Origin: Amycolatopsis sp. EV170708-02-1
Lineage (GTDB): Bacteria > Actinomycetota > Actinomycetes > Mycobacteriales > Pseudonocardiaceae
Assembly (NCBI RefSeq): GCF_022479115.1
Contig: NZ_CP092497.1
Coordinates: 3,968,001-4,032,000 of the forward strand
Length of the DNA: 64,000 nucleotides
Direction: 5' to 3'
Shown in pieces: positions 24,434-63,755 of the stretch (positions are counted from its first letter, which is position 1; every line of letters begins with the position of its first letter). A program made the translations under genes and the position numbers. Below the pieces are notes generated by a model. It saw only the letters and a list, made by a program, of their open reading frames with translations. It made no database searches and was not told where the DNA came from.

Positions 24434-24448
24434 TTGAGGATGGAACAC

Positions 24449-30423: not shown

Positions 30424-30446
30424 CCGATGAGGAAAGAAGGTCGCAG

Positions 30447-46993: not shown

Positions 46994-47602
46994 GGTGGCC
47001 ACCTCTCATTACTCTGAGTGCTTGCGGCACAGCTGTTCGTTCAGATGGAGGAGGACTGTCACCCGTCCAACGTAGTGATGCTACGTTCCGGCAAGGAAAC
47101 GCCCAAGTGGACGAGTGTAGCTAAGCCCGAACGGGTTACGACAGCTGTGCTCGGGATATCATTCATATGTAACATTTAGCTCAGGCTTGTGTATCAGTCT
47201 TTCGACATGATCAACTGGAACTGGTCGAGCCCGCGCGGCACCGGCGACGTGCCCGTTGGGTCCACGGAAACGGCCCGCGTCCCTGATCAGGAACCCTTGG
47301 GGGCCTAGCCGGTGGTTGCATCACCAACTGCGAGAGTGGTGCACTGACTAGATCCTGGTGATGCGGACGAACCGCGGCCGAGGTGGCGGGGCGCGACCCG
47401 CGCCTGCGCGGCGATTGCGCTTGTCTGGAACCTCTTGTCCTCCCGGCACAGGTAGAGGACGACCTGAAGCGCGTGAGCCATGCCGGACGTCCTGCATGTA
47501 CTGGTGCGATTCTGCGTGCTGCTGATTACTCTTCAGGCGACAGTTGCAGGAGACTCTTATTGAGGGGTAAGTCAAACATGGCGTGGTCGGTGCGGGGTGG
47601 TT

Positions 47603-47642
47603 GTGAGTGGCGTTTCGTGTTCTAACCCGAAACGCCACTCAC
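47603..47642. repeat. 15-base-arm perfect palindrome
   Basis: GTGAGTGGCGTTTCG and its exact complement around a 10-base loop. With no gene ending beside it, it is more likely a dispersed intergenic palindrome than a terminator. Confidence 0.75.
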
Positions 47643-47664
47643 GACCCGCGCTTGACAAGGGCCG

Positions 47665-47705
47665 AAGGCTCCCTTCGCCGCATTAGACGCGGCGAAGGGA
47701 GCCTT
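47665..47705. repeat. 17-base-arm perfect palindrome
   Basis: AAGGCTCCCTTCGCCGC and its exact complement around a 7-base loop, only 22 bases after the preceding palindrome. From memory, similar GAAGGGAGCC-type palindromes are scattered in Amycolatopsis genomes. Confidence 0.75.
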
Positions 47706-48533
47706 GATCGCGCCACCGACCCACCCGAGAATACGCCACGTTTGCCTTACCTCTCAATAGATGGCCTTCGGGGTTGCGGACAGCACCAGACCGCGGCTTG
47801 AGATGGATCGGCTCTACTGATGCTGGCACCAAGACCGCGCCCGGCATCCAAGAAGCGTTGCTGTCACAGGTTCCGGCGGAGACCGCGTGGGCAAGCTCTC
47901 CGGTGCTCGCGCGGCGGGACGAACGGTACACGCTGGCGACTCCTATACGCGTGTTTCGACGAGCGCACTCGTGGGCTCAGCCTGTAGTCGGCGCTGTCCG
48001 CGCGAGTGATCGTGGCTGTGGTGGAATGTGTGCGGAAAGGGTGACCCGTCAGTAGAGCTGATGATTCCCCGCAAGATCGTGATTAATAGCCAGAGCTGTC
48101 TCCGATGCAGGGACGTGTCCGCACAGGTCCGCCCGTCGGCTTCAAGTACCTGGCGAGTATTGTGTATGCGCCAGTATGCGGATATGCACAGACCGCCGCT
48201 GCGGAGTTGGCTCGTAACAGTTGCGACACGAATTTCCACTCGGTTGTCGGCCGGTCGAAGCTGATGAACGGTGACCACGTGCAGCGTCCCGTCATGTGGC
48301 GGTTGCGTGCCCACAGTCTTCGCTGCTCGCCGGAGCAGGTCCCGGTGCGTGCCCTGCGACGAAGACCGCGGTCTCACCGTCCAAGATCGCGAACGAGCCT
48401 GCGTCCGTACTGAAGCCTCGCTGGTGCAACCGAGCAGCCAGCGTCTGTCTGGCCGCTCGGCCGAAAATTCCGAGGGCAGTGCCTCCTATGTCTCAAATCC
48501 CAATCACGTTCATTGGGCCAAATGGAGTCACAT

Positions 48534-48571
48534 GAACTTTCGGGCAGAAAGATTGCCAGTTTGTACCTAGG
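48534..48571. promoter_or_regulatory. possible operator shared with the lipid cluster
   Basis: GAACTTTCGGGCAG (48534-48547) is followed by TGCCAGTTTGTACCTAG (48555-48571). The second part matches 15 of 17 bases at 22456-22472, and the first matches 22610-22624 with one extra T. GGGCA and TGCC form a short inverted repeat. It lies about 70-105 bases before the first gene of the PrnB operon, a typical operator/promoter distance. Confidence 0.4.
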
Positions 48572-48640: not shown

Positions 48641-49015
48641 GTGAGCTCAGAAATGGGGATTGCGGTGGCGTTCTCTGCCTTCGTTGTGGTGATCAGCCTG
48701 TTGTTCATGGGCGGAGGTTTGGCGAAGCTCGCAGGAGTCGATGTGATGCGCAGGGACGCGGAGCGCTTCGACCTCAAGTACGGCACCTATCGGCTCATCG
48801 GCGCAGCCGAGCTTGCCGGCGGACTGGCCTTGTGTGTTGCACGGTTCGCGTCGCAGCCCCTGCTCGGCATTGTTGCGGCCGCAGGACTGACTGCGCTGAT
48901 GTCAGGTGCTGTGGTAGTGCACCTGAAAGCGAAGGATGCTGTGGCCAAGACGGTACCCGCCGCTGCCTTCGGAGTCATCACAGCGGTGATCGCATACTTC
49001 TTCGCGGCGAGTTGA
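48641..49015 (+). CDS. DoxX-like membrane protein
   Basis: A 124-residue protein with four predicted transmembrane helices (about residues 7-27, 50-65, 72-90 and 102-122). The pattern 'FMGGGLAKLAG', 'YRLIGAAELAGGLAL', 'GIVAAAGLTALMSGAVVVH' is typical of the DoxX family. It is the first gene of an operon; its stop is one base before the PrnB-like start. DoxX-like proteins often accompany redox or biosynthetic genes, but no specific role can be read here. The start is GTG 48641 or ATG 48653. Confidence 0.78.
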   Translation: MSSEMGIAVAFSAFVVVISLLFMGGGLAKLAGVDVMRRDAERFDLKYGTYRLIGAAELAGGLALCVARFASQPLLGIVAAAGLTALMSGAVVVHLKAKDAVAKTVPAAAFGVITAVIAYFFAAS

Positions 49016-49016
49016 T

Positions 49017-50135
49017 ATGTCCCTGCCTCGCTTGCAGGCTATCACTGAAGCCGACAAATTGGATTCTTTTGACGAGTGTATTCAGGCCTTGGATCCGATC
49101 GACTTGGATCGACTGCTTCCGGCGGTGTGGCAGGCGAACGCTGCCGGCGATGTTCGGGCACTGCTTTCATTGATCCGGGAGATCGCCCCTCCGGTGGCGG
49201 ACGTCGAGCGGATGTCCATATCGGAGACTCTGGCCACGATGCGCGATCTTGGCATACTGCTCGGGTCGGTAAAGCGGAACGGCGCAGAGCCGGTATCCGA
49301 GATTTCCACTCTCGAGGAGGTGCTGCGGCTCCTCGCTCAGCGCAGCGGGTTGATTCCTCGTGACACCATCCATCACTACATCAGGTGGAATCCGACAGGG
49401 CGTCGGGAGCGGATGTACACAGGCTTGCCGATGGAGCGGTTACTCATGGCCGCCGTGCGGATCAGCTTGCCGCGCCTCAGTGATGCGGTCGACCTGTGTG
49501 TCGTGCTCGACTCAGCGGACGCGGGTGACCTCACCTTTGCTCTGGCCGCCAACGAGCTCGCCGCTTTGGTCGGGGCCATGGAGCACTCGATCGACACGGT
49601 TCTGGCCGGCGTCACGCCGGAGTTCTTTGCCAGGACCATGCGGCCGTTCTTCGAGGAGATCCGTGTCGGGGACGAGGTCTATCTCGGTCCGGCCGCAGCA
49701 CATGTGCCTCTGTCGGTCGTGGACCTCCTCGTATGGGCGTGCGATCACGGCGGAGACGAGTACCTCGAGTTCGCGGACGACTCGGTCGTGTACGGCTTGG
49801 AACATTGGAAGCCGTTGCACGGGAAGTGGCGACGAACTACGTCGCTTGTAACCAGAGTCACCGAGGAGCTCAAGCGGTGCTTGCCGGACGAAACACTCTC
49901 GCTAGGGCTGTACGCGAGCGCGGAGGCACTGTGTCGCACGATGCGATCACTCATGGTGTTCCGAGGTAAGCATCTCACGATCGCGAGGAAGGCCTATGCG
50001 GCTGACATCGGTCTTTACGAACTCGGCAGCGGCGGTGGGAGCGTGGCGATGCTCGAAGCGATCACCGACGCGACCAGGGCCACCTCGACGTTGCTGCGAC
50101 GATCCGTCACCACTCACTTGAAGGACCTGGGCTGA
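49017..50135 (+). CDS. PrnB-like heme enzyme (monodechloroaminopyrrolnitrin synthase family)
   Basis: A 372-residue protein that I align from memory with PrnB of pyrrolnitrin biosynthesis: 'ATMRDLGILLGSVKRNGAEP', 'IRWNPTGRRERMYTG', 'RPFFEEIRVGDEVYLGP', 'AHVPLSVVDLLVWA' and 'VFRGKHLTIARKAY'. In the last motif, His319 occupies the place of the proximal heme ligand. PrnB rearranges a (chloro)tryptophan into an aminophenylpyrrole and belongs to the indoleamine/tryptophan 2,3-dioxygenase-like fold. Length matches the family (about 360). Downstream genes overlap it (TGATG), so it is made together with a PhzS-like monooxygenase and a KS/KAS III/ACP set. No PrnA-type halogenase, PrnC or PrnD homologue is in the window, so the substrate may be unchlorinated tryptophan or something else. 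Confidence 0.85.
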   Translation: MSLPRLQAITEADKLDSFDECIQALDPIDLDRLLPAVWQANAAGDVRALLSLIREIAPPVADVERMSISETLATMRDLGILLGSVKRNGAEPVSEISTLEEVLRLLAQRSGLIPRDTIHHYIRWNPTGRRERMYTGLPMERLLMAAVRISLPRLSDAVDLCVVLDSADAGDLTFALAANELAALVGAMEHSIDTVLAGVTPEFFARTMRPFFEEIRVGDEVYLGPAAAHVPLSVVDLLVWACDHGGDEYLEFADDSVVYGLEHWKPLHGKWRRTTSLVTRVTEELKRCLPDETLSLGLYASAEALCRTMRSLMVFRGKHLTIARKAYAADIGLYELGSGGGSVAMLEAITDATRATSTLLRRSVTTHLKDLG

Positions 50136-51403
50136 TGGCAAGGGTGGTGATCGGCGGCGGTGGCGTGGGCGGCCTTGCGGCGGCCTTGTGTCTGCACCAC
50201 CTAGGAATCGGTGACGTTGTCGTGCTGGAGGCTGCGCAAAACATCGAGCCCCTAGGCGTAGGGTTGAACATCCTGCCCAACGCGGTCCGGGTCCTGCGTG
50301 ATCTGGAAGTGCTCGACCAGTTGTCCGTTCAGGCGATCCACACCAGCGAACTGCGCTACTACAACTGTCACGGCGATCTCATCTGGGCTGAGCCCCGTGG
50401 CGTTGCGGCCGGATACATCGTCCCGCAGCTTTCGATCCATCGCGGCGATCTGCATGGGGTCCTGCTGGCCACAGTCAGAGACCGACTGGGGTATCAGGCT
50501 GTTTTGACCGGCGCATCGATCACGGGTGTTGCCGAAGATGAGACCGGCGTTCACGCGCGAGTCGAACATGCCGACGGTTCATTCTCCACAATCTCTGGGG
50601 ATCTCATGATCGGTGCCGACGGCATGAATTCCACTGTCCGCGCGGCACTATGGCCGGAAGAAGGTGCACCGGCGCGCAACGGGGTCGCCATGTGGCGCGG
50701 AACATCATGGACAGAGCCGTTCCTAGACGGGCGCACCATGATCGTCAGCGGTGACGACGTCCGACGCATCGTGTTGTACCCGGTTCGTGCCGACGGCCGG
50801 TCCGGCCGGGTGATGGTGAATTGGGTTGCAGCTCAGCCCGCGCCCGGAGGCCTCTCACTTCGGTCCGGGGGCCCCTCGGATCCCGAGCGTTTCTGGTCGT
50901 CCTTCGACGTGTGGAGTTTCGACTGGCTGGACATCTCGGCGATCATCGCCGCATCCGAACAGGTACACGAGTATCCGATGGAGGACCGTGATCCGTTGCC
51001 GAGGTGGACATGTGGCCGGGTGACCTTGCTCGGTGACGCGGCGCACGCGATGTACCCGATGGGCTCCAACGGCGCGACACAGGCGGTGATGGACGGCTGG
51101 GTTCTCGCGAGAGCGTTGGCAGAGCACGATTCCCATGACGAAGCGCTGCTCGCGTATGAGACCGAGCGCAGGCCGATCACCACCGAACTGCAGATCAAGA
51201 ACAGGAGCATGGGGCCGGAAGCGGTGATCTCCGTGGCGCACGAACGGGCACCACATGGCTTCGTCAACGTGAACGACGTGTTCACCCCGGGGGAGCTCGC
51301 TGCCATCTCGCAGAAGTACGCCGTGGTCGGAAATTTCGACATCGACTCGGTGAACCGACATTCGGGCCCCGAGAACCCACCAGAAGTGAGGCGCAAGACA
51401 TGA
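50135..51403 (+). CDS. PhzS-like flavin-dependent monooxygenase
   Basis: A 422-residue class A flavoprotein hydroxylase. It has the FAD-binding GGGGVGGLAAALCL motif at the N-terminus, the 'DLMIGADGMNSTVRAAL' DG motif, and 'VTLLGDAAHAMYPMGSNGAT' with the GD motif. The whole protein parallels PhzS of phenazine (pyocyanin) synthesis: 'PLGVGLNILPNAVRVL', 'ELRYYNCHGDLIWAEPRGV', 'SIHRGDLHGVLLATV' and 'YPMEDRDPLPRW'. Such enzymes hydroxylate or oxidatively decarboxylate electron-rich aromatics. Here the likely substrate is the PrnB product or a later aromatic intermediate (inference). The start overlaps the PrnB-like stop by one base, and the stop overlaps the KS start (ATGA). Confidence 0.9.
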   Translation: MARVVIGGGGVGGLAAALCLHHLGIGDVVVLEAAQNIEPLGVGLNILPNAVRVLRDLEVLDQLSVQAIHTSELRYYNCHGDLIWAEPRGVAAGYIVPQLSIHRGDLHGVLLATVRDRLGYQAVLTGASITGVAEDETGVHARVEHADGSFSTISGDLMIGADGMNSTVRAALWPEEGAPARNGVAMWRGTSWTEPFLDGRTMIVSGDDVRRIVLYPVRADGRSGRVMVNWVAAQPAPGGLSLRSGGPSDPERFWSSFDVWSFDWLDISAIIAASEQVHEYPMEDRDPLPRWTCGRVTLLGDAAHAMYPMGSNGATQAVMDGWVLARALAEHDSHDEALLAYETERRPITTELQIKNRSMGPEAVISVAHERAPHGFVNVNDVFTPGELAAISQKYAVVGNFDIDSVNRHSGPENPPEVRRKT

Positions 51404-53157
51404 GCACCGAGGAGCCGGAGCAGACGTCGACCTGGGGCGGCGCCGGCGGCGAGCAAGCGATCGCGGTGGTGGGGATGGCTTGCCGTTTCCCGGGAGCCGA
51501 TAGCGTGGATACTTTGTGGCAGTTGATGCGGGACGGGGTGGACGCGACCGGTGACACCCCGGTGGAGCGCTACGACGCGAAGGCGATGTACTCGCCCCAT
51601 CCGGAACCGGGCAAGGTGATCAGCCTCCGGTCCGGGTACGTCGATGGCATCGCCGGTTTCGACGCGGAGTTCTTCGGCATGTCGGAGAACGAAGCCCGTA
51701 GCCTCGATCCGCAGCAACGGCTCCTGTTGATGACAACGTGGGAGGCGTTCGAAGACGCGGGACAAGTTCCCTCCGCGCTCGCGGGCAGCCGAACGGGTGT
51801 GTACGTGGGCAGCATGCACCTCGATTACTGGGATCTTGTCGCCAAGCGCGGTGTGCAAGCGATCGGCCCCAGCTCGGTCTATAACTACCGGTCAGTGCTT
51901 TCGGGCCGCCTGTCCTACACGTTCGATCTCCGCGGGCCGAGCATAACCCTGGATACGGCGTGCTCGTCGTCGCTTGTGGCCGTGCATCTGGCGAGTCAGA
52001 GCTTGCGCCTGGGCGAGACGAACATGTCGGTAGTGGCCGGCGTGAATCTCAAGCTCACTCCTGACGAGGACGTGCTGCTCTCGCAGGTTCGGATGCTGGC
52101 GCCGGATGGACGGTGCAAGTTCGGGGACGCGTCGGCGAACGGGTTCGCACCGTCGGACGGCGTTGGTGTGGTGGTCCTGAAACGGCTCGCAGACGCACTC
52201 GTCGACGGTGATCGTGTGCATGCCGTCGTCCTGGGAAGTGCCGTAACCAATGATGGTGCCAGCAGCGGATCGTTGCTGGCACCCTCGGTCGAAGGGCATG
52301 TGCAGATGCTGCGGTGGGCTTACGAGAACGCCGGAGTGGCACCTGGTGAGGTCGACTTCGTCGAGGCGCACGGCACTGGTACACCTATGATCGATCCGAT
52401 CGAGTTCGCCGGATTGGGCGAAGTGCTGGGTGAGGGACGCGACCAGTCCCGTCCGGTCCTGGTCGGATCCGTCAAGTCGAACCTCGGTCACACCGAAGGC
52501 GCGGCAGGCGTCGCAGCGCTGATCAAGACGGCCATGTGCCTGCGGCACCGCCAGGTCGTTCCGAGTCTGCATCACCACATGCCCAACCCGAAGGTGCCGT
52601 GGAGCGAACTGCCGGTGCGTGTGCCGACCGAACTGCGCCCGGTCGAGCCTGTGGGGCGACTCGCCATCGCGGGCATCAGCGGTCAGGGAATCTCATCGGT
52701 CAATTGCCACATCGTGGTGGGAGAGGCTGACCCCACGTGGCGACGTGCGAACAATGCTCATGTCACCAGGCCATTGCCGTTCGCAGTGTCAGCGCGTACG
52801 CCCACAGCGTTGGAAGACCTCCTGCGGCGCTACATCACTTATCTCTCTCCATGTGGCCAGGGACGACAGGAATCCCTTCTCGACGTGTGCTTCAGCGCAG
52901 CGACGAGCAGGGAGCACCACACGCATCGCCTTGTTTTCGAAGCCGCTACCGCGGATGAACTCGTGGACAAGATGCGGCGCTACCTTGGAGGCGAGACCGA
53001 TGTGGAAGCCGCGACGGTGGTGGCGGCGGTGTACCGCGCGGGTGGTTCTCCCGACTGGGCCGACGTGTTCGAAGGCGAAGGCCGGTGCGTGTCGTTGCCG
53101 CACTACCCCTGGCAGACAAACGACTACTGGCTTGATGGCGTGGCGGTGACATCATGA
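51400..53157 (+). CDS. free-standing PKS ketosynthase with AT remnant linkers but no AT
   Basis: A 585-residue protein. Residues 20-445 are a modular-type KS with intact TACSSSL Cys, VEAHGTGTPMIDP His and SNLGHTEGAAG His. A KS-AT linker follows ('FAVSARTPTALEDLLRRYIT', 'DVCFSAATSREHHTHRLVF'), then the text jumps directly to a post-AT linker ('VAAVYRAGGSPDWADVFEG', 'LPHYPWQTNDYWL'). The whole catalytic AT is absent. This is like the AT-less KS-docking arrangement of trans-AT systems. A separate AT must act in trans; the AT in the 60771-63755 protein or FabD are candidates. Both ends overlap neighbours by four bases, so it is stoichiometrically coupled to the monooxygenase and KAS III. Confidence 0.9.
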   Translation: MSTEEPEQTSTWGGAGGEQAIAVVGMACRFPGADSVDTLWQLMRDGVDATGDTPVERYDAKAMYSPHPEPGKVISLRSGYVDGIAGFDAEFFGMSENEARSLDPQQRLLLMTTWEAFEDAGQVPSALAGSRTGVYVGSMHLDYWDLVAKRGVQAIGPSSVYNYRSVLSGRLSYTFDLRGPSITLDTACSSSLVAVHLASQSLRLGETNMSVVAGVNLKLTPDEDVLLSQVRMLAPDGRCKFGDASANGFAPSDGVGVVVLKRLADALVDGDRVHAVVLGSAVTNDGASSGSLLAPSVEGHVQMLRWAYENAGVAPGEVDFVEAHGTGTPMIDPIEFAGLGEVLGEGRDQSRPVLVGSVKSNLGHTEGAAGVAALIKTAMCLRHRQVVPSLHHHMPNPKVPWSELPVRVPTELRPVEPVGRLAIAGISGQGISSVNCHIVVGEADPTWRRANNAHVTRPLPFAVSARTPTALEDLLRRYITYLSPCGQGRQESLLDVCFSAATSREHHTHRLVFEAATADELVDKMRRYLGGETDVEAATVVAAVYRAGGSPDWADVFEGEGRCVSLPHYPWQTNDYWLDGVAVTS

Positions 53158-54116
53158 CGCGCGCCGCGGTGCTGTCCGGGTTGGGGGCGTGGGCCCCGCC
53201 CCATGAAGTGTCCAACGACGAGATCGCAGCGCTGATCGGTCGCGATGACGAATGGATCCGGGCCCGGACAGGAATCGCCAGCAGACGCAGGGTCGCGCCG
53301 GGCGTATCCACGGGAACGTTGGCTGTCGGTGCGGGCAGGCGTGCGCTGCGTTCAGCCGAAGTCAGCACGGTAGACCACGTGATTCTGGCAACCACCACTC
53401 CGGAACGGATCATGCCGGCCACCGCCCCGGCGGTCGCTTCCGCGCTGGGACTTTCCGCGCCCGCATTCGATCTCAACGCGGCGTGCTCCGGTTTCGTCTA
53501 TGGTCTGGCCGTCGCGTCGAGCCTGATCATTGCCGGCACCGCGGAGAGTGTGCTGTTGATCGGCGCCGACACGCTCTCTTCGATCACCGACCCGACCGAT
53601 CCGATGACCGCACCGCTGCTCGCGGATGGGGCCGGCGCGGTCGTCCTGAGAGCGGGACACGCGGAGGAACTCGGGGCTCTGCACGCATTCGACCTGCACA
53701 GCGAGGGCGAGCACGTCGAATCCCTGAAAGCTGAACACGGGGGCCGCGTCGTGATGCAAGGTAGGCAGGTCTTCATGGCCGCGGTGCGGAACATGGCGGC
53801 GTCAGCCGTGGCGGCAGTCGAGACCGCCGGTTTCGCACTGCCCGATCTGGACAGGGTCATCGGGCATCAGGCAAACATCAGGATCCTGCACGCCGTCGCC
53901 GATCAGCTCGGTCTGACACCAGACCGGCTGGTAACGAATCTCGTGCGGTTCGGCAATACTTCCGCCGCGTCGATCCCACTCGCGATGGTGGACGGCGTCT
54001 CGACGAGCCAGCTGAATCCCGGCGAGCTTGCTCTCGTTACCGCCTTCGGTGCGGGGTTCACCTGGGGGGCGACGACGCTGCGGTGGCCCGCCCTTGTAGT
54101 GGAGAAAGTCGACTGA
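53154..54116 (+). CDS. KAS III-type (FabH-like) ketosynthase
   Basis: A 320-residue thiolase-fold enzyme with the complete Cys-His-Asn triad: Cys111 in NAACSGF, His238 in GHQANIRI and Asn268 in GNTSAAS. The N-terminus (LGAWAPPHEVSNDEIA, then WIRARTGIASRR) and the C-terminal 'VTAFGAGFTWGA' are typical FabH blocks. It condenses an acyl-CoA or acyl group with an ACP-bound extender, or acts as an acyltransferase. In this operon it may start a chain or join the PrnB-derived unit to the ACP product (inference). It overlaps the KS stop (ATGA) and is followed 21 bases later by a discrete ACP. Confidence 0.92.
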   Translation: MTRAAVLSGLGAWAPPHEVSNDEIAALIGRDDEWIRARTGIASRRRVAPGVSTGTLAVGAGRRALRSAEVSTVDHVILATTTPERIMPATAPAVASALGLSAPAFDLNAACSGFVYGLAVASSLIIAGTAESVLLIGADTLSSITDPTDPMTAPLLADGAGAVVLRAGHAEELGALHAFDLHSEGEHVESLKAEHGGRVVMQGRQVFMAAVRNMAASAVAAVETAGFALPDLDRVIGHQANIRILHAVADQLGLTPDRLVTNLVRFGNTSAASIPLAMVDGVSTSQLNPGELALVTAFGAGFTWGATTLRWPALVVEKVD

Positions 54117-54137: not shown

Positions 54138-54371
54138 GTGAATGAGAACTTTCGCAGGTTGGCCAGAGTGCTTGATCGTTGGTCCACAGTCGCGGGCGAA
54201 GACATCACACCGCAGTCGGAGATCGACGACGGTCTGGACATCGACTCTCTCACCCGGCTGGAAGTGGTGCTAGCCATGAACAAGGAGTTCGGGCACACAT
54301 TCGACGACGTCGATGTACTTGAGGCGAAGACCGTATCTGACCTGCTAAAACTCGTCCCGGTTTCGGGCTGA
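54138..54371 (+). CDS. discrete acyl carrier protein
   Basis: A 77-residue ACP with the phosphopantetheine site in LDIDSLTRLEVV. The helix I region (NFRRLARVLDRWSTVAGEDI) and helix III (VLEAKTVSDLLKLV) are as expected. The start is GTG at 54138 with GAGGAG five bases upstream. It is the last gene of the + operon and the likely carrier for the KS and KAS III reactions. Confidence 0.92.
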   Translation: MNENFRRLARVLDRWSTVAGEDITPQSEIDDGLDIDSLTRLEVVLAMNKEFGHTFDDVDVLEAKTVSDLLKLVPVSG

Positions 54372-54764: not shown

Positions 54765-56594
54765 CTATGGGGTCCTACTTGGCGCTGCGGCGATCAGCGC
54801 AGCGATGGCACTGAGGTTGGGCTGTCGCATCACTTCGCTGGCTTTGACCCGAATCTCGAAGGTGCTCTCGATCAAGGCGAGCAAGCGCGCTATGGCCAAT
54901 GACGTACCGCCCGAATCGGGTAGGCTGTCGACGAGATTGAGCTCAGGTTGGTCGAATACTTGTCGGCAAGCCGCGAGCAGGAAGTCCTCGGTACCTTGGG
55001 GCGCGTGTGATCGCACGGCCTCAGGAGAAGCGGTCGCAGCCGCCGCTGCCTGCCGCACGAGGTCGGCGCGATCGACTTTCCCGTTGGTGTTGATGGGAAG
55101 ACTGTCGACGAAACGCACCATGGCAGGCACCGCCTGTTCGAGCACCCTGGTTCGGGCGTTGTCCAAAACCGCGACGGTGTCAGCCTCTGCCCCGTCTCTC
55201 AGCAGCAGGAAGGCAGCCAAGCGTAACGAACCGCCGGTTCCCTGGAATGGCACCACTACGGCACTGCGGACCGATTCGTGTGTCTCCAGTGCCGCCTCGA
55301 CCTCCGCCGGCTCTATCCGCGCACCGCTGATCTTGACCTGCTCATCCATGCGGCCAAGGAATTCGAACAGCCCGTCGGCGCGTAACACCGCTCTGTCGCC
55401 GGTCAGATATACCCGATCCGCATACGACTGCCCACTAGGTGCGGATACGAAGCGTTCGGCCGTGCGCTCCTGGTCGACGTAACCAAGAGCCAGGCCAACT
55501 CCGCCGATGCGGATCTCGCCGGCCTCGCCCCGGGGCAAGATGCGGCCATCCTCGTCCGTGATGAAAACGCTGTATCCGGCCAGCGGTTCTCCGATGGGTA
55601 TCGCACCCTCCGGATCGTCACTTTGCGGCCGCAGCCGGTAAGTGGTGGTTAGTACGGTGGCTTCAGCTGGGCCGTAGCCATTGTGCACGACCGCGGAGCA
55701 TTCGGTCGGTGGACGTTTGCGCATCCGGTCCCCGGCTACGAGGATGTGGCGCATCGTGAGGTCGTCCGGCCATCGTTGGTCGAATGCGAGTTCAGCCAGC
55801 TGTGTCGGCAGCGCGCAATGGGTGATGGCTGACTCCATCCACCACCGGAAAAGCTCGGAGACTGAGCCGCGCGAGTCCTTTGGAGCGACGTGTAGGGTGC
55901 CGCCGGAGGACAGCGCTCCCCACAGCTCGTAGACGTGCAAATCGAAGGTAGGGCTGGCGAACAGGCCGACCCGGGATGTCGAATCGATCTCAAACCTGCT
56001 GCATGTGCAGCTGATCAGGTTTGCCACAGCGTCCTGACACAGCAGCATGACCTTGGGCTTGCCGGTGCTACCCGAGGTCGCGACCGCGCAAAACGCCTCA
56101 CGCGGATACCGGTGGGCCGGGCCATTGCGTGACCCGATGCTCAGGCCACCGACCTCCGCAGCGGGTTCAATCCTCCAACCAGACGTCAGTGTGGCGGAGT
56201 CTTCAATGAGCAGGTGATCTATCTTCGCGTCATCCGCGATCGACTGGATCCGGTCGGCTTCGGGTCGCACACCGAGGCCGAGATAAATGGCGCCGATCCT
56301 GGCTAGTGCCACCGCTGAAGCCACCAGCAGCGGGGAGCGCTCCAAACAGACACCGACCAGCTGGCCAGGACTGACCCGGCCGTCGAGGGCTCGGATGATG
56401 CGGGCGGCGGTACGGTTGAGATCCCGGTAGCTCCAGGTGACTTGTCCGGACACGACCGCCGGCGCCTCGGGCTGTTTTGTCAGCCAGGTGTCGAACCACT
56501 CGAGCGGACCGCACCCCGTGACCAGGGCCTGAGCCGTGTCCCCGCCCCACGCAATGCTGAGCGAACGGGAGTGGCCGCGGTTGTCGATGGTCAT
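54765..56594 (-). CDS. NRPS adenylation-PCP didomain protein
   Basis: A 609-residue protein: A domain (residues about 20-500) and PCP (about 520-600). A-domain cores visible are TSGSTGKPKV (A3), FDLHVYELWGALSSGG (A4), HNGYGPAEATV (A5), GYVDQERTAERF, YLTGDRAVLRADG (A7), GRMDEQVKISGARIEP (A8) and NTNGKVDR (A10). The PCP has GGTSLAI with Ser565. From a hand alignment to PheA, the pocket residues read about D-L-Y-A-L-A-G-V-L-K. Asp235 is kept, so an alpha-amino acid is expected; the substrate is not assigned. I chose the ATG at 56594 (GGAG upstream); the frame further up overlaps the C-domain gene. Its stop abuts an IS256 fragment. Confidence 0.9.
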   Translation of the reverse strand: MTIDNRGHSRSLSIAWGGDTAQALVTGCGPLEWFDTWLTKQPEAPAVVSGQVTWSYRDLNRTAARIIRALDGRVSPGQLVGVCLERSPLLVASAVALARIGAIYLGLGVRPEADRIQSIADDAKIDHLLIEDSATLTSGWRIEPAAEVGGLSIGSRNGPAHRYPREAFCAVATSGSTGKPKVMLLCQDAVANLISCTCSRFEIDSTSRVGLFASPTFDLHVYELWGALSSGGTLHVAPKDSRGSVSELFRWWMESAITHCALPTQLAELAFDQRWPDDLTMRHILVAGDRMRKRPPTECSAVVHNGYGPAEATVLTTTYRLRPQSDDPEGAIPIGEPLAGYSVFITDEDGRILPRGEAGEIRIGGVGLALGYVDQERTAERFVSAPSGQSYADRVYLTGDRAVLRADGLFEFLGRMDEQVKISGARIEPAEVEAALETHESVRSAVVVPFQGTGGSLRLAAFLLLRDGAEADTVAVLDNARTRVLEQAVPAMVRFVDSLPINTNGKVDRADLVRQAAAAATASPEAVRSHAPQGTEDFLLAACRQVFDQPELNLVDSLPDSGGTSLAIARLLALIESTFEIRVKASEVMRQPNLSAIAALIAAAPSRTP

Positions 56595-56622
56595 CGAAGT
56601 CTCCTTCAACTCTGTGAGTCCG

Positions 56623-57975
56623 TTACCGTCCGGTGGCACGATCAAGATCAGTCAGGCTCCTGCCGGAGTCGAGGACATAGGACTCGAGTAGCTGTGCGAA
56701 CTGTCGTTGCAGTTCAGAAATCCGTTCAGTGTCGTAGAGGTCGGTCGCGAAATCCCAGATCAGCAACATTCCGCCGACGGTCGATCGGGGGTTGACCGTT
56801 CGCTGAGAGTCCGGGATGAGCACTACGTCGAGGTCAAAACGCGAGGTCCCGGTGTTGAGCGCCTCTTGGATGGACACGTCGAGGCTGAGCCCATCGATCT
56901 GGGGTAGAGGAGCGTCGTGCGCGCTGAACATGACACGGAACAGGGGGTTGTCCAGGCCGGAGGCGGAATGCACGCCGAGCTCACGAGCAAGGTCTTGGAC
57001 CGGTATGCCCTGGTGCGGTAGCGAGCGAACCAGTACTTCTGTGACCTCGTCTGCGGCGTGTCGGGCGCTCTGCCCAGGCTGGAGCTGGATGCGCAGTGGG
57101 ATGGTATTGACGAACATCCCGATGCACTCCTCGTATCCAGGCGGACGATTGCCGACGGCGCTGCCGATCACCAGATCGGTCCGGCCGGTGTCCCGGCGCA
57201 ACAGTTCTGCGAAGAGGGTGAGGAAGATCGAGAAGACTGTGTGCCCGTCGCGTCGAGCTGTGGCGCGCAACCGGTCGGCCAGTTCGGGCGCGATCAGTTG
57301 TCGCCTTTGGTCACCGTGGGGTATCGACCGCACTCGCGTGGAGGGAACCAGCCCAGGTAAAGGGAGGTCGAAGGTTGCGCCATCGAGTGCGCGGCGCCAG
57401 TATGCCATGGACTCGGTACGGGGACCCGCCTGTTGGTCCGCGGCACCCGTGTGCTCGACATATTCGGTGTAGGACCGAGGCTTCGGCAACTCGGCCGCAG
57501 TACGGCGCGTCAGCGCACGGTAACTGATGAACAGGTCGCGTATGACGAGGGCGAAGGACCACCCGTCATGCACCAAGTGATGCTCGGTATGCAGCAGTCT
57601 GTGGTGGCGGTCGGAGAGCCGGACCAGTGTCCAGCGCACCAACGGAGCCTCGGCGATCTTGAAGGGCTCGTCATGCTGCTCTCTCCAAAGCTTCTCGAAA
57701 TCCGCTTCCTGGTTTGAGCTCTCTGGGATCTCCACAGCTCTGTAGCGCATCTCGCACGCGCGATTCACCCGTTGCTTCGGAGGACAGTGCACGGTGTCGA
57801 CTTCGAGCTGGAACGCCTCGTGACGTGAGAGAACGGTGGCCAGACTTTCTCGCAGGGCAGGCTCGTCCAGCATGCCGCGTAAGTCGAGAATGGCCGTGAA
57901 GTTGTAAGCTCGGCTCTCCGGGAAAAGTTCCTCGTGGAGCCAGACGATCTCTTGGGAACGAGAAAGGGCGGTCAT
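56623..57975 (-). CDS. free-standing NRPS condensation domain
   Basis: A 450-residue C-domain protein with an intact HHLVHDG motif (HHxxxDG: His132, His133, Asp137). Other cores are 'SRSQEIVWLHEELFPES' (C1), 'RHEAFQLEVDTV', 'IGSAVGNRPPGYEECIGMFV' (C5), and a late 'NPLFRVMFSAHDA' (C6). It could join the amino acid on the A-PCP protein to a polyketide acyl chain from the KS-AT-ACP protein. The start ATG 57975 lies 23 bases after the upstream stop; a longer N-terminus overlapping that gene looks non-coding. Confidence 0.9.
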   Translation of the reverse strand: MTALSRSQEIVWLHEELFPESRAYNFTAILDLRGMLDEPALRESLATVLSRHEAFQLEVDTVHCPPKQRVNRACEMRYRAVEIPESSNQEADFEKLWREQHDEPFKIAEAPLVRWTLVRLSDRHHRLLHTEHHLVHDGWSFALVIRDLFISYRALTRRTAAELPKPRSYTEYVEHTGAADQQAGPRTESMAYWRRALDGATFDLPLPGLVPSTRVRSIPHGDQRRQLIAPELADRLRATARRDGHTVFSIFLTLFAELLRRDTGRTDLVIGSAVGNRPPGYEECIGMFVNTIPLRIQLQPGQSARHAADEVTEVLVRSLPHQGIPVQDLARELGVHSASGLDNPLFRVMFSAHDAPLPQIDGLSLDVSIQEALNTGTSRFDLDVVLIPDSQRTVNPRSTVGGMLLIWDFATDLYDTERISELQRQFAQLLESYVLDSGRSLTDLDRATGR

Positions 57976-57998
57976 CGATGTGGCTCTTTCAGGAGGGG

Positions 57999-59732
57999 CT
58001 ACAAGGTGGTGATGGTGTCCCGGAGCAGGTACTCCAGACCGTTGCCGTGCAGCCATTCGGCGCAGACCTTGGCGTGTTCGGGGCGATCGGTTTCAGACAG
58101 ACGCTGCTGGGCGTCCGCAGCCCGGTGCCGGGCCTCGGTACAGAACACGTCAGCCAGGTCCTGTGTCGGCCCCGCGCCACCGGGGTCCAGTCGAGCGGCT
58201 TTGGCCAGCACCAACGACATGCTGAAAAGCTCGGTGGCGATCCGGTTGAGCAGGATCAGCATGTGTTCCTTGGTGAAAAGTCCTTCGGCATCGGGATGGC
58301 GGTCTACTAGATCACGACACTCGCGTGCGAAGGACACTGCCTGGCCCGCAACGAAACGGAGGTGGTCCTGGTTGCGCCTGGAGAGCGAACCGCCCGCCGT
58401 TCTAAGCTCGCTCGGTTCCCGCGCCACAGGCTTTGGCGCGGAATAGTGACGTAGCAGAAAGTTCCTGGCCGCCCAGCGGTCGATATTGAAGTCCACGCCG
58501 CCGGTGACTCGCAGTCCTCGCGCGTCGCGGAAGAACCGCTCGACCGGCAACGGCTGGGCACCGCGCCTGGCCTTGCTTGACGCGGTCTCGTAGCCCTCGG
58601 CGGCCAGCAGGGATAGCGTCCGGTCGACAATTCGCCAACTCGTCATCGTGATGATGTTCTTTGCGAGAACCTGTTCCGGATCCAGATCAATTCCTGGGTG
58701 GTGCTGCTCGGCGAGCATGCACCACTCGGCGACGCTTTCCATCGCGAAGGTCTCGGCGAGGTTTGCCGCTACAACGCGCTGGATCTCATCATGGTCCTCC
58801 AGGCCGCTGCCGTCGACACTGCGCCGCTTGACGAACTCTCGGGACCAGTGCAAGCAGAGGCGGCCGATGGCAAGGGCTGGAGCCGCATTGGGATACATCC
58901 GGCCGCGCACGCTGATGGAATGCAATTCGGGAACCAGTCGCCATTCCTCTTTGGTGTGCATCCCGTCGAAAGCCAAGACCCGGCCACGCGGGACGAATAC
59001 CCGGTCGAACATGAGGTTCGCGCTTGGCATTCCCTTCAGGCCCAGGAACTCGTGGCAGGACCGGACAGAGAATCCCGGGTCCGAGGTGTCGACGAAGAAC
59101 AGTCGAATATGATCGATGCCGTTTTCGCGCACGGTGGCTGAGACGCGGAGCAGGCCGGCGATCGGGCCGTTGGTGATGTAAACTTTCTCGCCGCTGACGT
59201 AGAACCCAGTACCGTCGGCGGCCGGGACCGCTTTGGTTGCTCGTGCTCGGTTGATCGCGCCGGTCGGCTCGGTGTCCGCGTCTCCTGAGATCAGGCCCAT
59301 TGCCAGCAGCCGTTCAAGCTCCGACTTCAACTCACCGTCAGCGAGGATCGGTAGATACGCGCCTGCGCCGAGGCCGAGGTGGATGGCCATGGCGAAGCTC
59401 GCGGCGACCGACCAACTGGCCACGGCCTGGATCATCCGAAACGCGTTGTAGGCTGACAGGCCGAGGCCGCCGTGCTCGAGCGGAGCCTGGAGCCGGAAAT
59501 AGCCGCGGGCAGCGCAGGCCTCGTGAAAGCCGTCCGGGAGTTTCGCGGTGCGGTCAACCTCAGCCGGGTCGACGGTCTGCTTGAGGAAGTTCATCACCGC
59601 GGCGACGACGGCGTCGCCACGGGCACGTTCACTCTCCGACTGCACGGGGAAGGGACTGATCAGATCCCAACGGAGCCGACCGAAATGCAGTTCGTCAAGG
59701 AAGCCCGCACGGGTTTCTTCGAGGGGGTTCAT
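57999..59732 (-). CDS. acyl-CoA dehydrogenase-like flavoprotein
   Basis: A 577-residue protein of the acyl-CoA dehydrogenase family, longer than the usual ~390 because of a ~170-residue C-terminal extension. Family signs are 'EHGGLGLSAYNAFRMIQAV', 'GLISGDADTEPTGAINRA', 'GFYVSGEKVYITNGPIAG', 'FDRVFVPRGRVLAF', and the substrate/flavin end 'ERFFRDARGLRVTGGVDFNI'. The catalytic Glu was not identified with confidence. In NRPS/PKS operons such proteins oxidise carrier-bound acyl or aminoacyl groups (as in pyrrole-carboxylate formation from prolyl-PCP) or create alpha,beta-double bonds. Which applies here is unknown. It lies 9 bases after the thioesterase gene and 23 before the C-domain gene. Confidence 0.85.
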   Translation of the reverse strand: MNPLEETRAGFLDELHFGRLRWDLISPFPVQSESERARGDAVVAAVMNFLKQTVDPAEVDRTAKLPDGFHEACAARGYFRLQAPLEHGGLGLSAYNAFRMIQAVASWSVAASFAMAIHLGLGAGAYLPILADGELKSELERLLAMGLISGDADTEPTGAINRARATKAVPAADGTGFYVSGEKVYITNGPIAGLLRVSATVRENGIDHIRLFFVDTSDPGFSVRSCHEFLGLKGMPSANLMFDRVFVPRGRVLAFDGMHTKEEWRLVPELHSISVRGRMYPNAAPALAIGRLCLHWSREFVKRRSVDGSGLEDHDEIQRVVAANLAETFAMESVAEWCMLAEQHHPGIDLDPEQVLAKNIITMTSWRIVDRTLSLLAAEGYETASSKARRGAQPLPVERFFRDARGLRVTGGVDFNIDRWAARNFLLRHYSAPKPVAREPSELRTAGGSLSRRNQDHLRFVAGQAVSFARECRDLVDRHPDAEGLFTKEHMLILLNRIATELFSMSLVLAKAARLDPGGAGPTQDLADVFCTEARHRAADAQQRLSETDRPEHAKVCAEWLHGNGLEYLLRDTITTL

Positions 59733-59741
59733 CGTCCGCCT

Positions 59742-60536
59742 TCAAAGTCGGGGAGTAACGTGGTCGGCCGGCGACGCGGCAAGGTCACGGCTCGCCAGAG
59801 TTGCCTGGATCAGTCCGAAAAGGCCGGAACTTCGTTGGCGAAGGTAGAAATGTCCGCCAGGGAGCAACTTCAGTGTGAACTGCCCTTGGCAATGGTCTCG
59901 CCACGCGGCGAGTTCCATGGCCGTGAGCCGGTCCTCGATCCCACCGACGGCATGTATCGGCATGTTCAGCGGAGCCCCGTCGACGTACTGATAGCTGTCC
60001 ACGAGTTCGAAATCGCACCGGTGCGAGCTCATCACGATGGCCAGCAGTTCGGCATCCTCGGCTATCTCGTTCGGCAGTGTGCAGTACTCGCCTTGTATTT
60101 CGGCGAAGAGTTCCCGGTCGCTGAGCTGGTGGATCGGATGCAGCCTGCGCGGCAGGTGTGGAGCCGGGCAAGCGGAGACCATCAAATACTCTGGAGCCGG
60201 CAACCCGAGCCGGTGCAGTGACCGCGCTGTCTCGTAGGCCAGTAAGGCGCCGAGGCTGTGGCCGAAGAAGGCAAAGGGTCCGTGGAACTCCGCCTGCTCC
60301 ACCAGATCGTGGACCAGCGAGTCGACCCTGGTGTAGTGTGGATCGGAAATTCGCGAGCCCCGGCCGGGAAGCTGGATCCCCCACACTTCGATATCGGGTA
60401 GGTCATCGGCCCATCGGACGAACTCGGCTATCGAACCGCCGCTGTGGGCGAAGCAATACAAGCGTAAGGGTGCTTCAGGACGCCTGCGGCGGTTCATCAG
60501 CCACCGTGGAGCGTGTCGTTCCTGGATGTCGAGCAC
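59742..60536 (-). CDS. type II thioesterase
   Basis: A 264-residue external thioesterase of the TEII class. It has 'LYCFAHSGGSIAEFVRWA', the nucleophile elbow FFGHSLGALLAYE (Ser94), the LSDRELF region, 'VGGIEDRLT' with the probable catalytic Asp, and 'LLPGGHFYL' with His229. It removes stalled or wrong acyl groups from carrier domains of the PKS/NRPS line. The GTG start has a strong AGGAGG five bases upstream. Confidence 0.93.
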   Translation of the reverse strand: MLDIQERHAPRWLMNRRRRPEAPLRLYCFAHSGGSIAEFVRWADDLPDIEVWGIQLPGRGSRISDPHYTRVDSLVHDLVEQAEFHGPFAFFGHSLGALLAYETARSLHRLGLPAPEYLMVSACPAPHLPRRLHPIHQLSDRELFAEIQGEYCTLPNEIAEDAELLAIVMSSHRCDFELVDSYQYVDGAPLNMPIHAVGGIEDRLTAMELAAWRDHCQGQFTLKLLPGGHFYLRQRSSGLFGLIQATLASRDLAASPADHVTPRL

Positions 60537-60770: not shown

Positions 60771-63755
60771 TTAAGAGATGTCAACCGTGGACCTTTCCGA
60801 TGGCTGATCGGTCCGAGCGGATTCGACCAGGCGGGCCAGCAGGCGAGGGGTAGGTGCGGTGAAGATCTGTTTGACGGTGATCCGTGTACCGAATGCCGCT
60901 CGGACGGCAGCGGCGAGTTGGATGGCGATCAATGAGTCTCCGCCCAACTCGAAGAAGTCGGCCTCGGCGGTGACCTCCTCCAGGCCGAGCAGCTGGCCGA
61001 AGATCTGGGCGAGCCTGTGCTCCGCCACGCCTTCGAGAGCTGATTCGGGAACGAGCGGTGCTGCGCTCCCAGCATTCGCCGGACCGGAATCATCAGGTGC
61101 CAGCGGTGAGTACCGCTGTGGACTGAACGGATAAGTCGGAAGCTCGACACGACGTGGTTGGTTGCCGTTGTGCAGCCGTGTCCAATCGAGAGCAATTCCT
61201 GCGGCCCAGAGCCTGCCTGTGGCGGCGAGGGAGGTGCGCACTGAAGATTGTCTGTCGGCAGGGTGAGGCAGGCTTGGCAGAATCAAATGACGTTCGGTGC
61301 GGGAAGGGTGGCGGCGGGCAAGGGTCGTCAATGTATGGCCGGGCCCGACCTCGAGCAGGATCTGGTCGGGTTCGGCGAGCAACGTGGCGAGGGTTTGGCT
61401 GAATCGCACGGTCGTGCGCATGTGGGTAGTCCAGAAGTCCGGTGTGGGCGCCCCTTCCATAGGGACCCAGCTTCCAGTGCTGTCGCCGATCCAGGGTATG
61501 GAAGGCGCCTTGGCATCGAGTTGTCCGACCAGCGCGGCGAACTTGTCGAGGATTGGCTGGACTAGGGCACTGTGTGCGCCGGCGGTGACGTGTAGCCGGC
61601 GCGCATCGATCCCGACTGCCGTAAGGCGAGCGCAAAGCGAGTCGATAGCGGCTTGCGATCCCGACACTACGCACTGATCGGGTCCGTTGACCGCCGCGAC
61701 TTCTAAGTCGCCATCGAGTAGCTTGGCGACATCGCCCTCGGGCAGCGCGACGGCGAGCATCGCCCCGGGTGGCAGGGTTTGCAACAACCTGCCGCGTTCG
61801 GCGACCAGCCACAACGCGTCGGGTAGTGAGAAAACTCCTGCTACGCAGGCGGCGACGAAGGCGCCTAGGCTGTGCCCGGCGACGGCGGCCGGTTGCACTC
61901 CGCGCGCTTGCCACATTCGGGCTAGTGCGTACTCCACCGCGAAAACGGCCGGCTGAGCGATACTCATGTCCTGTAGCGCTGCTTCTGCGGCAGTGCTTTC
62001 CTGCGCGTTCTCCGGGTAGAGCACCGTCGTGATCTCGCGGTCGATCGCGGGCCTCAGCAGCCCACAGCACTCCTCGATCGTATCGTGGAACACCCGGTCA
62101 TGATGGTAAAGCTCGCGGCCCATGCCGACGTGCTGACCACCCTGCCCGGGGAAGAGGAAGGCCACGGGGCGATCCCGGCCCTCCGACAGATAGCTGACGG
62201 ATGTCGGGTCGACGAGGGCGTTGACCGCCTCAGCATGGTCGGTGGCCACGGCGAACCGGCGATATACGAAAGCGCGCCGCCCGGCTTGCAGCGTCCAAGC
62301 GGTCTCAGCTAGCCCTCGACCGAGTTCGTCGGTACACGATGCCTGCTCCTGAAGATGCTCGGCTAAACGTACGGCGGCCCGGTCCAGCTCTGGGATGGTG
62401 CGCGCCGACACAACCAAAAGGTGACTTTCCGGTGTCGCGACGACGCTCTCCTGGGTGGGGGGCTCCTCCAGGATGGCATGAGCGTTGGTGCCGCCGATTC
62501 CGAACGAGCTGACTCCTGCTCGCCGGGGGCCGTCCGAGTGCCACGGGTGTAGTGCGGTGTTCACTACGAAGGGGGTGTCCTCGAAGGCGATCTCTGGGTT
62601 TGCCGACGTGTAGTTCAGACTTGGTGGGATCAGGCCGTGCTGAACTGTCAGTACCGTCTTGATGAATCCAGCCACTCCGGCGGCGGAGTCGGTGTGACCG
62701 ATGTTGGTTTTCACCGAGCCGATCCGGCAGGAGCCGTGTCGATCGGTACCACGTCTGAAGGACTCGGCCAGCGCGGCCACTTCAATCGGGTCACCGAGTG
62801 GCGTTCCCGTCCCATGTGCTTCGACGTAGCCAATACTGCCCGGATCGACTTCGGCCACCAGGTGAGCCGTGCGGATGACGTCGGCTTGTCCGGCCACGCT
62901 GGGGGCGGTGAACCCCACCTTCTCCATACCGTCATTGTTCACAGCTGTCCCACGCAGCACAGCGCGTATGAGGTCCCCGTCTTCCAGCGCATCGCCGAGC
63001 CGCTTGAGTACGACGATACCGACGCCATTCGAGGCAACCGTCCCTCGTGCTCGCGCGTCGAAGGCAGAACAGTTGCCATCCGGTGAGAGGATGCCACCCT
63101 CGGTGTATTCAGGCACTCGCGATGGGACTGTTACGCTGGCGCCGCCTGCCAGTGCCAGATCACACTCGCCGCACAGCAGCGCCTGGGCGGCGATGTGAAT
63201 GGCGACCAAAGAAGTCGAACACGCTGTCTGCACCGTCACGGCCGGGCCAGTGAGCCCGAGCTTATGGGCGACACGCGAGGTCAGAAAGTCCACCCCGGTG
63301 GCCAGGCGTAATTGCCATTCAGTGACCGGTCCGAGCTTGTCGCGGTGCGCCTTCAGTGTCTCCAGATAGTCGGTCTGGCCACTCCCGGCGTAAACACCCA
63401 CCGAACCAGCGTAGTTGTGAGGGTCGTATCCCGCGTTCTCCAATGCCTCCCACGCACACGTCAAAAAGAGTCGCTGTTGGGGATCGAGAAGCAGAGCCTC
63501 TCTGGGTGAATAGCCGAAGAATGCCGCATCGAACTCGTCCGCGCCCTCCAGCACGCCGAGAGCGGGGATGTACTCCTGGATCGCGGGGTCACCAGGAAAG
63601 CGAGTGATCGAGTCCCTGCCATGCGTCAGATTGTCCCAGAACGCGCGAACGTCTGGGGCACCTGGAAACCGTCCAGCCATGCCGATGACGGCGAGAAACG
63701 AGTCGTCCGCTGCCAGCGGATTCCGTTGATCCATCGAAAGCTCGGGCGCGGTCAC
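60771..63755 (-). CDS. type I PKS module KS-AT-ACP
   Basis: A 994-residue module without reductive domains. KS (residues 20-450): QTACSTSLVAI Cys, VEAHGTGTPLGDPIE His, TNIGHTDSAAGVAG His. AT (about 545-850): LFPGQGGQHVGMGREL, GHSLGAFVAAC, and the selectivity region TAGAHSALVQPIL, which is neither the classical malonyl HAFH nor the methylmalonyl YASH, so the extender is not assigned. A post-AT linker (LPTYPFSPQRYSP) and an ACP with ELGGDSLIAIQLA end the protein. The GTG start overlaps the stop of the upstream gene (GTGA), so the two megasynthases are coupled. There is no docking-type coiled coil at the N-terminus, which begins with a short polar stretch. Confidence 0.93.
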   Translation of the reverse strand: MTAPELSMDQRNPLAADDSFLAVIGMAGRFPGAPDVRAFWDNLTHGRDSITRFPGDPAIQEYIPALGVLEGADEFDAAFFGYSPREALLLDPQQRLFLTCAWEALENAGYDPHNYAGSVGVYAGSGQTDYLETLKAHRDKLGPVTEWQLRLATGVDFLTSRVAHKLGLTGPAVTVQTACSTSLVAIHIAAQALLCGECDLALAGGASVTVPSRVPEYTEGGILSPDGNCSAFDARARGTVASNGVGIVVLKRLGDALEDGDLIRAVLRGTAVNNDGMEKVGFTAPSVAGQADVIRTAHLVAEVDPGSIGYVEAHGTGTPLGDPIEVAALAESFRRGTDRHGSCRIGSVKTNIGHTDSAAGVAGFIKTVLTVQHGLIPPSLNYTSANPEIAFEDTPFVVNTALHPWHSDGPRRAGVSSFGIGGTNAHAILEEPPTQESVVATPESHLLVVSARTIPELDRAAVRLAEHLQEQASCTDELGRGLAETAWTLQAGRRAFVYRRFAVATDHAEAVNALVDPTSVSYLSEGRDRPVAFLFPGQGGQHVGMGRELYHHDRVFHDTIEECCGLLRPAIDREITTVLYPENAQESTAAEAALQDMSIAQPAVFAVEYALARMWQARGVQPAAVAGHSLGAFVAACVAGVFSLPDALWLVAERGRLLQTLPPGAMLAVALPEGDVAKLLDGDLEVAAVNGPDQCVVSGSQAAIDSLCARLTAVGIDARRLHVTAGAHSALVQPILDKFAALVGQLDAKAPSIPWIGDSTGSWVPMEGAPTPDFWTTHMRTTVRFSQTLATLLAEPDQILLEVGPGHTLTTLARRHPSRTERHLILPSLPHPADRQSSVRTSLAATGRLWAAGIALDWTRLHNGNQPRRVELPTYPFSPQRYSPLAPDDSGPANAGSAAPLVPESALEGVAEHRLAQIFGQLLGLEEVTAEADFFELGGDSLIAIQLAAAVRAAFGTRITVKQIFTAPTPRLLARLVESARTDQPSERSTVDIS

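Follow-up and report, generated by a model that had tools for sequence, protein, structure and literature searches.

A six-gene cassette that is conserved as a unit surrounds the gene for a PrnB-family heme enzyme (49017..50135, plus strand) in a 64,000-nucleotide stretch of the genome of Amycolatopsis sp. EV170708-02-1 (contig NZ_CP092497.1; this whole stretch is hereafter the window). The cassette is best explained as a self-contained, sporadically distributed biosynthetic unit. We consider it somewhat probable that it rearranges tryptophan, oxidizes the product with a FAD monooxygenase (FMO), supplies an acyl group from a FabH-like enzyme and an acyl carrier protein (ACP), and joins the two with a ketosynthase (KS), and that the facing operon of nonribosomal peptide synthetase (NRPS) and polyketide synthase (PKS) genes is separate. 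The features of the cassette (AT, acyltransferase; KAS III, ketoacyl-ACP synthase III) are:

48641..49015, plus strand: small DoxX-like protein, whose gene opens the cassette 1 nt ahead of prnB (PF13564, 57.9 bits)
49017..50135, plus strand: PrnB-family heme enzyme, 372 aa (PF08933)
49701..49703, plus strand: codon of H229, adjoining the carboxylate-contact stretch
49971..49973, plus strand: codon of H319, the proximal heme ligand judging from its alignment to position 313 of 2v7i
50028..50030, plus strand: codon of S338, aligned with the carboxylate-binding serine, Ser319 of FbPrnB
50135..51403, plus strand: PhzS-like FMO, 422 aa, whose start overlaps the prnB stop (PF01494, 96 bits)
51400..53157, plus strand: AT-less type I-like KS, 585 aa (PF00109, 271 bits; PF02801, 136 bits)
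53154..54116, plus strand: FabH-like KAS III, 320 aa (PF08541 and PF08545; Cys-His-Asn motifs intact)
54138..54371, plus strand: discrete ACP, 77 aa (PF00550, 42 bits; serine of the DSL motif at residue 37, by eye)

The product of 49017..50135 scores 108.1 bits against PF08933, four times the cut-off of 27, and is the sole PrnB match in the whole 9.66-Mb genome. Its predicted structure is confident and has the fold of indoleamine 2,3-dioxygenase (IDO), with PrnB as the nearest structure, so that it is not merely IDO-like. It has the fold, the PF08933 domain, the proximal histidine, and the carboxylate serine in common with the two solved PrnBs, pyrrolnitrin PrnB of P. fluorescens (2v7i) and FbPrnB (9dfg). 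Histidine occupies the position of H319 in 34/34 rows of our alignment A1 and in 82/82 rows of a larger tree set (84 rows, less the two solved PrnBs), and serine occupies the position of S338 in 33/34 and 82/82 rows, respectively. (Matching S338 to Ser319 involves, by our own reading, a 20-residue shift in numbering between the paper and the chain.) R115-D116-T117, H120, Y121, W124-N125-P126, F315-R316, and H319 are invariant across the 34-row alignment. Y121 aligns with Tyr104 of FbPrnB, whereas 2v7i has Val117 there, and 2v7i has GPGAVE where the window enzyme has GPAAAH. An earlier note on this DNA had called the enzyme PrnB-type, and the domain score, the modelled fold, and the two kept residues bear this out; the same note held that loss of the proximal histidine would speak against the idea, and by alignment H319 appears to be retained, which favors it.

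The six genes (DoxX, PrnB, FMO, KS, KAS III, and ACP) are separated by 1, −1, −4, −4, and 21 nt. The FMO passes the threshold of a PhzS-like subfamily (NF005720, 503 bits, cut-off 400) and matches 2rgj/3c96 over residues 4-362 (307 bits). The KS has a CurL-like C-terminus and an intact Cys-His-His triad (DTACSSSL, EAHGTGT, and NLGHTEGA), and a Pfam scan of 51400..53157 gave no AT match. The KAS III scores 335.6 bits against NF006829 (cut-off 249) and 292.5 bits against TIGR00747 (cut-off 292.1). Compared with the cassette of Lentzea, all six genes are under purifying selection (dN/dS of 0.21 for DoxX, 0.19 for PrnB, 0.21 for FMO, 0.18 for KS, 0.15 for KAS III, and 0.12 for ACP). When we cross-compared five relatives (L119, L120, L121, L077, and L066), the six cassette genes were common to them and little else was shared across genera, although close pairs share more. 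(L121 also encodes a second FMO-like protein, a 29% match to the FMO of L119.) The Lentzea cassette is followed by an integrase-like gene. Upstream of the window's cassette, five ORFs within 47348-48570 had no Pfam match, so no regulator was found there.

To place the cassette in its family, we searched species genomes with a profile and used the best 80 of 107 confirmed PrnB loci (L numbers), with the window in addition. Flanks were at most 10 kb and some were stopped by contig ends, so absences among these loci give lower bounds on presence. Genes of the relatives come from our own gene caller, which misplaces some starts and misses some genes; those of the window are ORF coordinates. Most of the loci are actinobacterial (77 of 80; L071, L076, and L078 are from Pseudomonadota). 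PrnB is followed by the FMO in 74/80 loci, by the criterion of a tblastn match to the window FMO at E 1e-10 on the same strand and starting at most 700 bp after PrnB. In L072 the FMO starts at 716 bp, and tblastn at E 1e-10 found no FMO homologue after PrnB in L033, L044, L067, L070, and L073. L067 has a different FAD_binding_3 protein at that place. A fusion of the FMO to a leucine carboxyl methyltransferase-like domain follows PrnB in L065 (L065:11065-13230), and L075 and L081 have ORFs as long as this fusion (by length and clustering only).

The full set of DoxX, KS, KAS III, and ACP (type A) accompanies PrnB in 6/80 loci and in the window: Lentzea (L002), Saccharopolyspora spinosa (L003), Thermocrispum (L004), two Glycomyces (L066 and L069), and Nocardia brevicatena (L077), which span Pseudonocardiaceae, Nocardiaceae, and Glycomycetaceae. 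This supports the link of PrnB to KS, KAS III, and ACP, for which the earlier note had suggested a search for co-occurrence. One further cassette genome (G350, locus L119) lies outside the 80. A variant, type A2, is found in L005 and, outside the 80, in L122. Type B loci (12/80) have a KS without KAS III, and HpaB in 11 of the 12, while type C loci (44/80) have HpaB without a KS. Overall, HpaB was present in 55 of the 80 loci, MFS in 55, NmrA in 57, and AraC in 60. A widespread Streptomyces type (44/80) reads NmrA, then AraC-HpaB-MFS-PrnB-FMO (e.g., L041:5991-15191); beside it we saw GlgE-family genes (45/80 loci) and glycogen phosphorylase-like genes (46/80).

The KS is tied closely to PrnB. 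Among 390 genomes of the window genome's family (G numbers; 3-5 first-look candidates were scored per genome), 17 match PrnB at E 1e-20 and 20 match the KS at E 1e-150. All six genomes whose KS is at least 62% identical to that of the window (G000, G250, G364, G350, G381, and G081) carry PrnB, but of the other 14 (at most 57% identity) only G110 does. Within the family, then, the close KS type is specific to PrnB loci.

Two sets of relatives vary the partners of the KS or the KS itself. In the type A2 loci, L005 and L122, there is no match to the window's KAS III or ACP, and PrnB-FMO-KS is surrounded by an amino-acid adenylation (A) domain, a peptidyl carrier protein (PCP), a PhyH-family protein, and a P450-like protein (predicted as two pieces in L005). 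Against TIGR01762, "chlorinating enzyme" (cut-off 226), the L122 PhyH protein reaches 435 bits; its counterpart in L005 is 80% identical, and both have an H-Q-A stretch. H-X-A/G in place of H-X-D/E marks halogenases of the SyrB2 type. As the A domain, PCP, and chlorinating-type enzyme stand in place of KAS III and ACP, the apparent donor to the KS seems to have been swapped while PrnB, FMO, and KS stayed. In the type B loci (L006, L007, L008, L010, L011, L015, L016, L018, L027, L030, L047, and L074), the catalytic cysteine of the KS is replaced by glutamine in 12/12 while both histidines are kept, and no cassette-type ACP was found among the called genes nearby. The change is not universal, as a similar locus, L124, keeps the cysteine. 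Three of the closest relatives of the KS outside PrnB loci (50-55% identity) are in three-gene operons of KS-PCP, A domain, and FAD oxidoreductase (L126:3678-8192, L127:7560-11961, and L128:7275-11804; the A domain of L128 was identified by blastp only). Like the cassette, these operons combine a KS, a carrier, and a flavoprotein; unlike the cassette, they have no PrnB match among their genes, and for the two of their flavoproteins that were scanned, the best match is to the geranylgeranyl-reductase family, at scores under its cut-off.

Evidence on the substrate comes from neighbours of PrnB in relatives. In Glycomyces L066, the gene ahead of prnB encodes a tryptophan halogenase (PF04820, 539 bits) that scores 829 bits to a tryptophan 6-halogenase and also matches RebH and PrnA (tryptophan 6/7-type). 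The Glycomyces cassettes have a flavin reductase after the FMO, and the halogenase and flavin reductase of L069 are 94% and 87% identical to their L066 counterparts. In L079, members of the halogenase and flavin-reductase families lie about 5 kb upstream on the opposite strand. Also, trpC-, trpD-, and trpE-like genes (trpC encoding indole-3-glycerol phosphate synthase) occur together in 7/80 loci, namely five of type B and two in Aquabacterium (identified with Pfam in L018 and by gene families in the others); those in Aquabacterium could simply be a housekeeping trp operon. Both the halogenase and the trp genes point to tryptophan as the probable substrate in relatives, and by analogy we infer that it is the substrate of the window enzyme. 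The earlier note had suggested that a tryptophan halogenase might lie to the right. This holds in the Glycomyces relatives but not in the window and the next 20 kb, where the only PF04820 match is the N-terminus of the FMO itself (21.8 bits). The whole genome has 13 PF04820 matches. The best (L112, 230 bits) was considered as a candidate tryptophan halogenase and rejected; glycosyltransferase-like and P450-like ORFs adjoin it, as judged by eye from translations. General ORF scans found no PrnD-type Rieske oxygenase, although no dedicated Rieske search was made.

We propose the following pathway. Given its fold, its residues, and the neighbours of its relatives, the PrnB-family enzyme would bind tryptophan, or in some hosts ring-halogenated tryptophan, and would rearrange it oxidatively to 3-(2-aminophenyl)pyrrole or a pyrroloindole-type unit, with the carboxylate possibly kept. 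The FMO, whose gene follows immediately, would then oxidize the tryptophan-derived unit; the PrnB-FMO pair persists in most members of the family while other genes vary. PhzS carries out a hydroxylation with decarboxylation. Judging from the protein families, the FabH-like enzyme would condense an acyl-CoA with malonyl-ACP, leaving a beta-ketoacyl group on the discrete ACP, and the AT-less KS might join this carrier-derived acyl group to the tryptophan-derived unit, either directly or following a single extension. Since the cassette has no ketoreductase, the keto group would remain, and its cyclization with the aniline nitrogen could give a pyrroloquinoline, a kind of compound known from Rapidithrix.

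The joining step by the KS is the weakest part of the proposal. One way in which it could work, which we think rather unlikely, is that the KS accepts the free product of PrnB and FMO as the carbon nucleophile instead of, or besides, malonyl-ACP, with the acyl group coming from whichever carrier a partner has loaded (the FabH product on ACP here and a chlorinated amino acid on PCP in L005 and L122). The Cys-to-Gln KSs of the 12 loci would then only decarboxylate what PrnB and FMO make, and PrnB, FMO, and KS would form a plug-in platform for tryptophan-derived hybrid heteroaromatics.

Several observations weigh against the proposed pathway. In 74/80 loci the fetched flanks showed no cassette-type KAS III and ACP, so these two genes are an add-on. 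KAS III also lacks the specificity of the KS: 213/390 genomes of the family match it at E 1e-72 (at most 59% identity outside cassettes), and even the KAS III within the Thermocrispum cassette has just 52% identity to that of the window. The cassette has no cyclase or ligase that would fix how the two parts are coupled. The window enzyme shares about 30% identity with the solved PrnBs and is separated from them by long branches, so its reaction may differ from theirs. In a tree of the 84 rows, one branch (starred; length 1.02) parts the two solved PrnBs from the other 82. The row closest to the window is Lentzea (85% over 344 columns); the window clusters with L002, L003, and L004 (support 99/84) and then with L005 and L077 (100/96). 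Because neither Glycomyces row falls within this set, the tree requires two changes, not one, to account for the type A architecture. From the literature, purified PrnB is reported to be inactive in vitro (PMC11791213), and the authors of another paper view the aminophenylpyrrole of Rapidithrix, and presumably marinoquinoline A as well, as a biosynthetic dead end, with a related dihydroquinoline being an isolation artefact (PMC2630848).

Position 229 of the enzyme follows the architecture of the locus in part. It is histidine in all eight rows of types A and A2 and glutamine in all 12 type B rows and in all 51 rows with HpaB, AraC, or MFS but no KS. The ten remaining rows are mixed (6 His, 3 Gln, and 1 Gly), and PyrK1, a PF08933 protein of Streptomyces rugosporus that is 42% identical to the window enzyme, also has histidine, so His229 is not exclusive to the cassette. 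Most of a further set of PrnB-family proteins, taken without their gene context, have histidine there too.

PyrK1 suggests a different chemistry, namely that the enzyme forms a pyrrolo[2,3-b]indole by oxidative ring closure with the indole unopened, as presumed for PyrK1, and not a phenylpyrrole. The two enzymes belong to the same family and are not separated from each other by the branch that sets the solved PrnBs apart, and H229 is common to PyrK1 and the cassette type. The reaction of PyrK1, and its role in the pyrroloindole part of pyrroindomycin, we take to be a proposal. Pyrroindomycins are named as a goal of pyrrolo-indole synthesis (PMC3009299). However, PyrK1 clusters with L070 and L073 (support 90/92), outside the cassette clade, and neither of these loci has an FMO match. 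We regard this chemistry as a serious but minority possibility. It is improbable, in our view, that the enzyme only oxygenates tryptophan without rearranging it, acting as a hydroxylase or dioxygenase in the manner of others in the heme-dependent aromatic oxygenase superfamily, with the FMO performing a second oxidation. We give still less credence to the idea that KS, KAS III, and ACP serve an acyl pathway of their own (e.g., to a lipid for the membrane or for signalling) and would be tied to prnB and the FMO by transcription alone. The KAS III does resemble common FabHs, and such genes are missing near most PrnB-FMO pairs, but this KS clade is retained beside PrnB-FMO even in loci in which an A domain, PCP, and chlorinating-type enzyme replace KAS III and ACP, and gene overlaps run through FMO, KS, and KAS III.

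The earlier note had read the cassette and the operon facing it as one PKS/NRPS cluster, in which the rearranged tryptophan unit would be built into a peptide-polyketide chain. Both operons are biosynthetic, and they point toward each other across a gap of 393 bp (54371 to 54765). The facing genes, which we judge to be a neighbouring, separate unit (TE, thioesterase; C, condensation domain; ACAD, acyl-CoA dehydrogenase-like protein), are:

54765..56645, minus strand: NRPS A-PCP protein (PDB matches for the A domain)
56623..58056, minus strand: stand-alone NRPS C domain (PF00668, 248 bits)
57999..59732, minus strand: ACAD
59742..60536, minus strand: stand-alone TE (PF00975, 135 bits)
60771..63755, minus strand: KS-AT-ACP polyketide synthase module

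Homologues of these genes occur together in L116, L117, and L118 (from genomes G080, G076, and G074, picked from 11 other ACAD loci), with identities of 52% for KS-AT-ACP, 45-49% for TE, 44% for ACAD, 31-35% for A-PCP, and 27-29% for C, and the cassette is absent from 3/3. Conversely, the cassette-type loci L119-L123 have no C, ACAD, or TE match at E 1e-5 in 5/5, and L121 and L122 have distant A-domain matches (24-28%). In the family search, which scored 3-5 first-look candidates per genome, fourteen other genomes have an ACAD of at least 42% identity, and 0/14 are among the 17 PrnB carriers; weaker ACAD matches (about 30%) do occur in some PrnB carriers. On this lack of co-occurrence in relatives we rejected the facing operon as a member of the cluster and treat the two convergent operons as neighbours, with the facing one judged to make something else. 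A single cluster is therefore quite improbable.

Returning to the proposed tryptophan-acyl pathway, its claim to a "new pathway logic", made in the earlier note, is weakened by PyrK1, whose host makes a PKS/NRPS compound. S. rugosporus produces pyrroindomycins, and their aglycone is built by PKS and NRPS (PMC4979870). The setting differs from that of the cassette, which has only a discrete KS, KAS III, and ACP where pyrroindomycin has modular PKS and NRPS, and PyrK1 is on a different branch. A PrnB homologue, pdnC, is also described in paenidepsin clusters (PMC13036774), so PrnB homologues in NRPS or PKS-NRPS settings have already been seen. Pyrrolnitrin PrnB turns 7-chlorotryptophan into the phenylpyrrole. 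Unlike that enzyme, the window enzyme is coupled to an FMO and a small PKS, with no tryptophan halogenase nearby. Similarly, the window FMO matches PhzS-type FMOs in sequence, but its context is PrnB and not phenazine. The closest likeness in products is to Rapidithrix thailandica, strains of which yield 3-(2'-aminophenyl)-pyrrole and the pyrroloquinoline marinoquinoline A (PMC2630848). This likeness is one of ring systems, and Rapidithrix is not an actinobacterium. In the open-licence literature we found no paper on the combination PrnB-FMO-KS-KAS III-ACP or its product, which is not proof of absence.

If the pathway is right, it would open a class of tryptophan-acyl heteroaromatics that has no product link in the literature found. 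The mechanism of PrnB is described as unsettled, and missing cellular components including partner proteins are suspected (PMC11791213). In this large and mostly actinobacterial sister family of PrnB, the FMO that follows PrnB at so many loci is a natural candidate for a partner protein. With only six genes, the cassette could be transferred intact into a laboratory Streptomyces, and its variants (with a tryptophan halogenase, with an A domain, PCP, and chlorinating-type enzyme, or with a Cys-to-Gln KS) form a built-in series for the role of the KS.

Some neighbouring genes are also of note. A Na/H-exchanger-family transporter lies inside or just after the cassette-type operon in two relatives (L122:8288-9601 and L066:16241-17491), and none was seen in the window's cassette. 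To the left of the cassette and oriented away from it is a PAS-GGDEF-EAL protein (44675-47002, minus strand), and about 20 kb to the right of the window is an nSTAND1-WD40 repeat protein (L083:1-3303). Farther left in the window, a PfaD-like protein (22781-24433, plus strand; PF21607, NMO) is followed by two ORFs of 1897 and 2633 aa (24434-38063, plus strand), so that 22781-38063 is perhaps a cluster of the polyunsaturated fatty acid- or glycolipid-synthase type.
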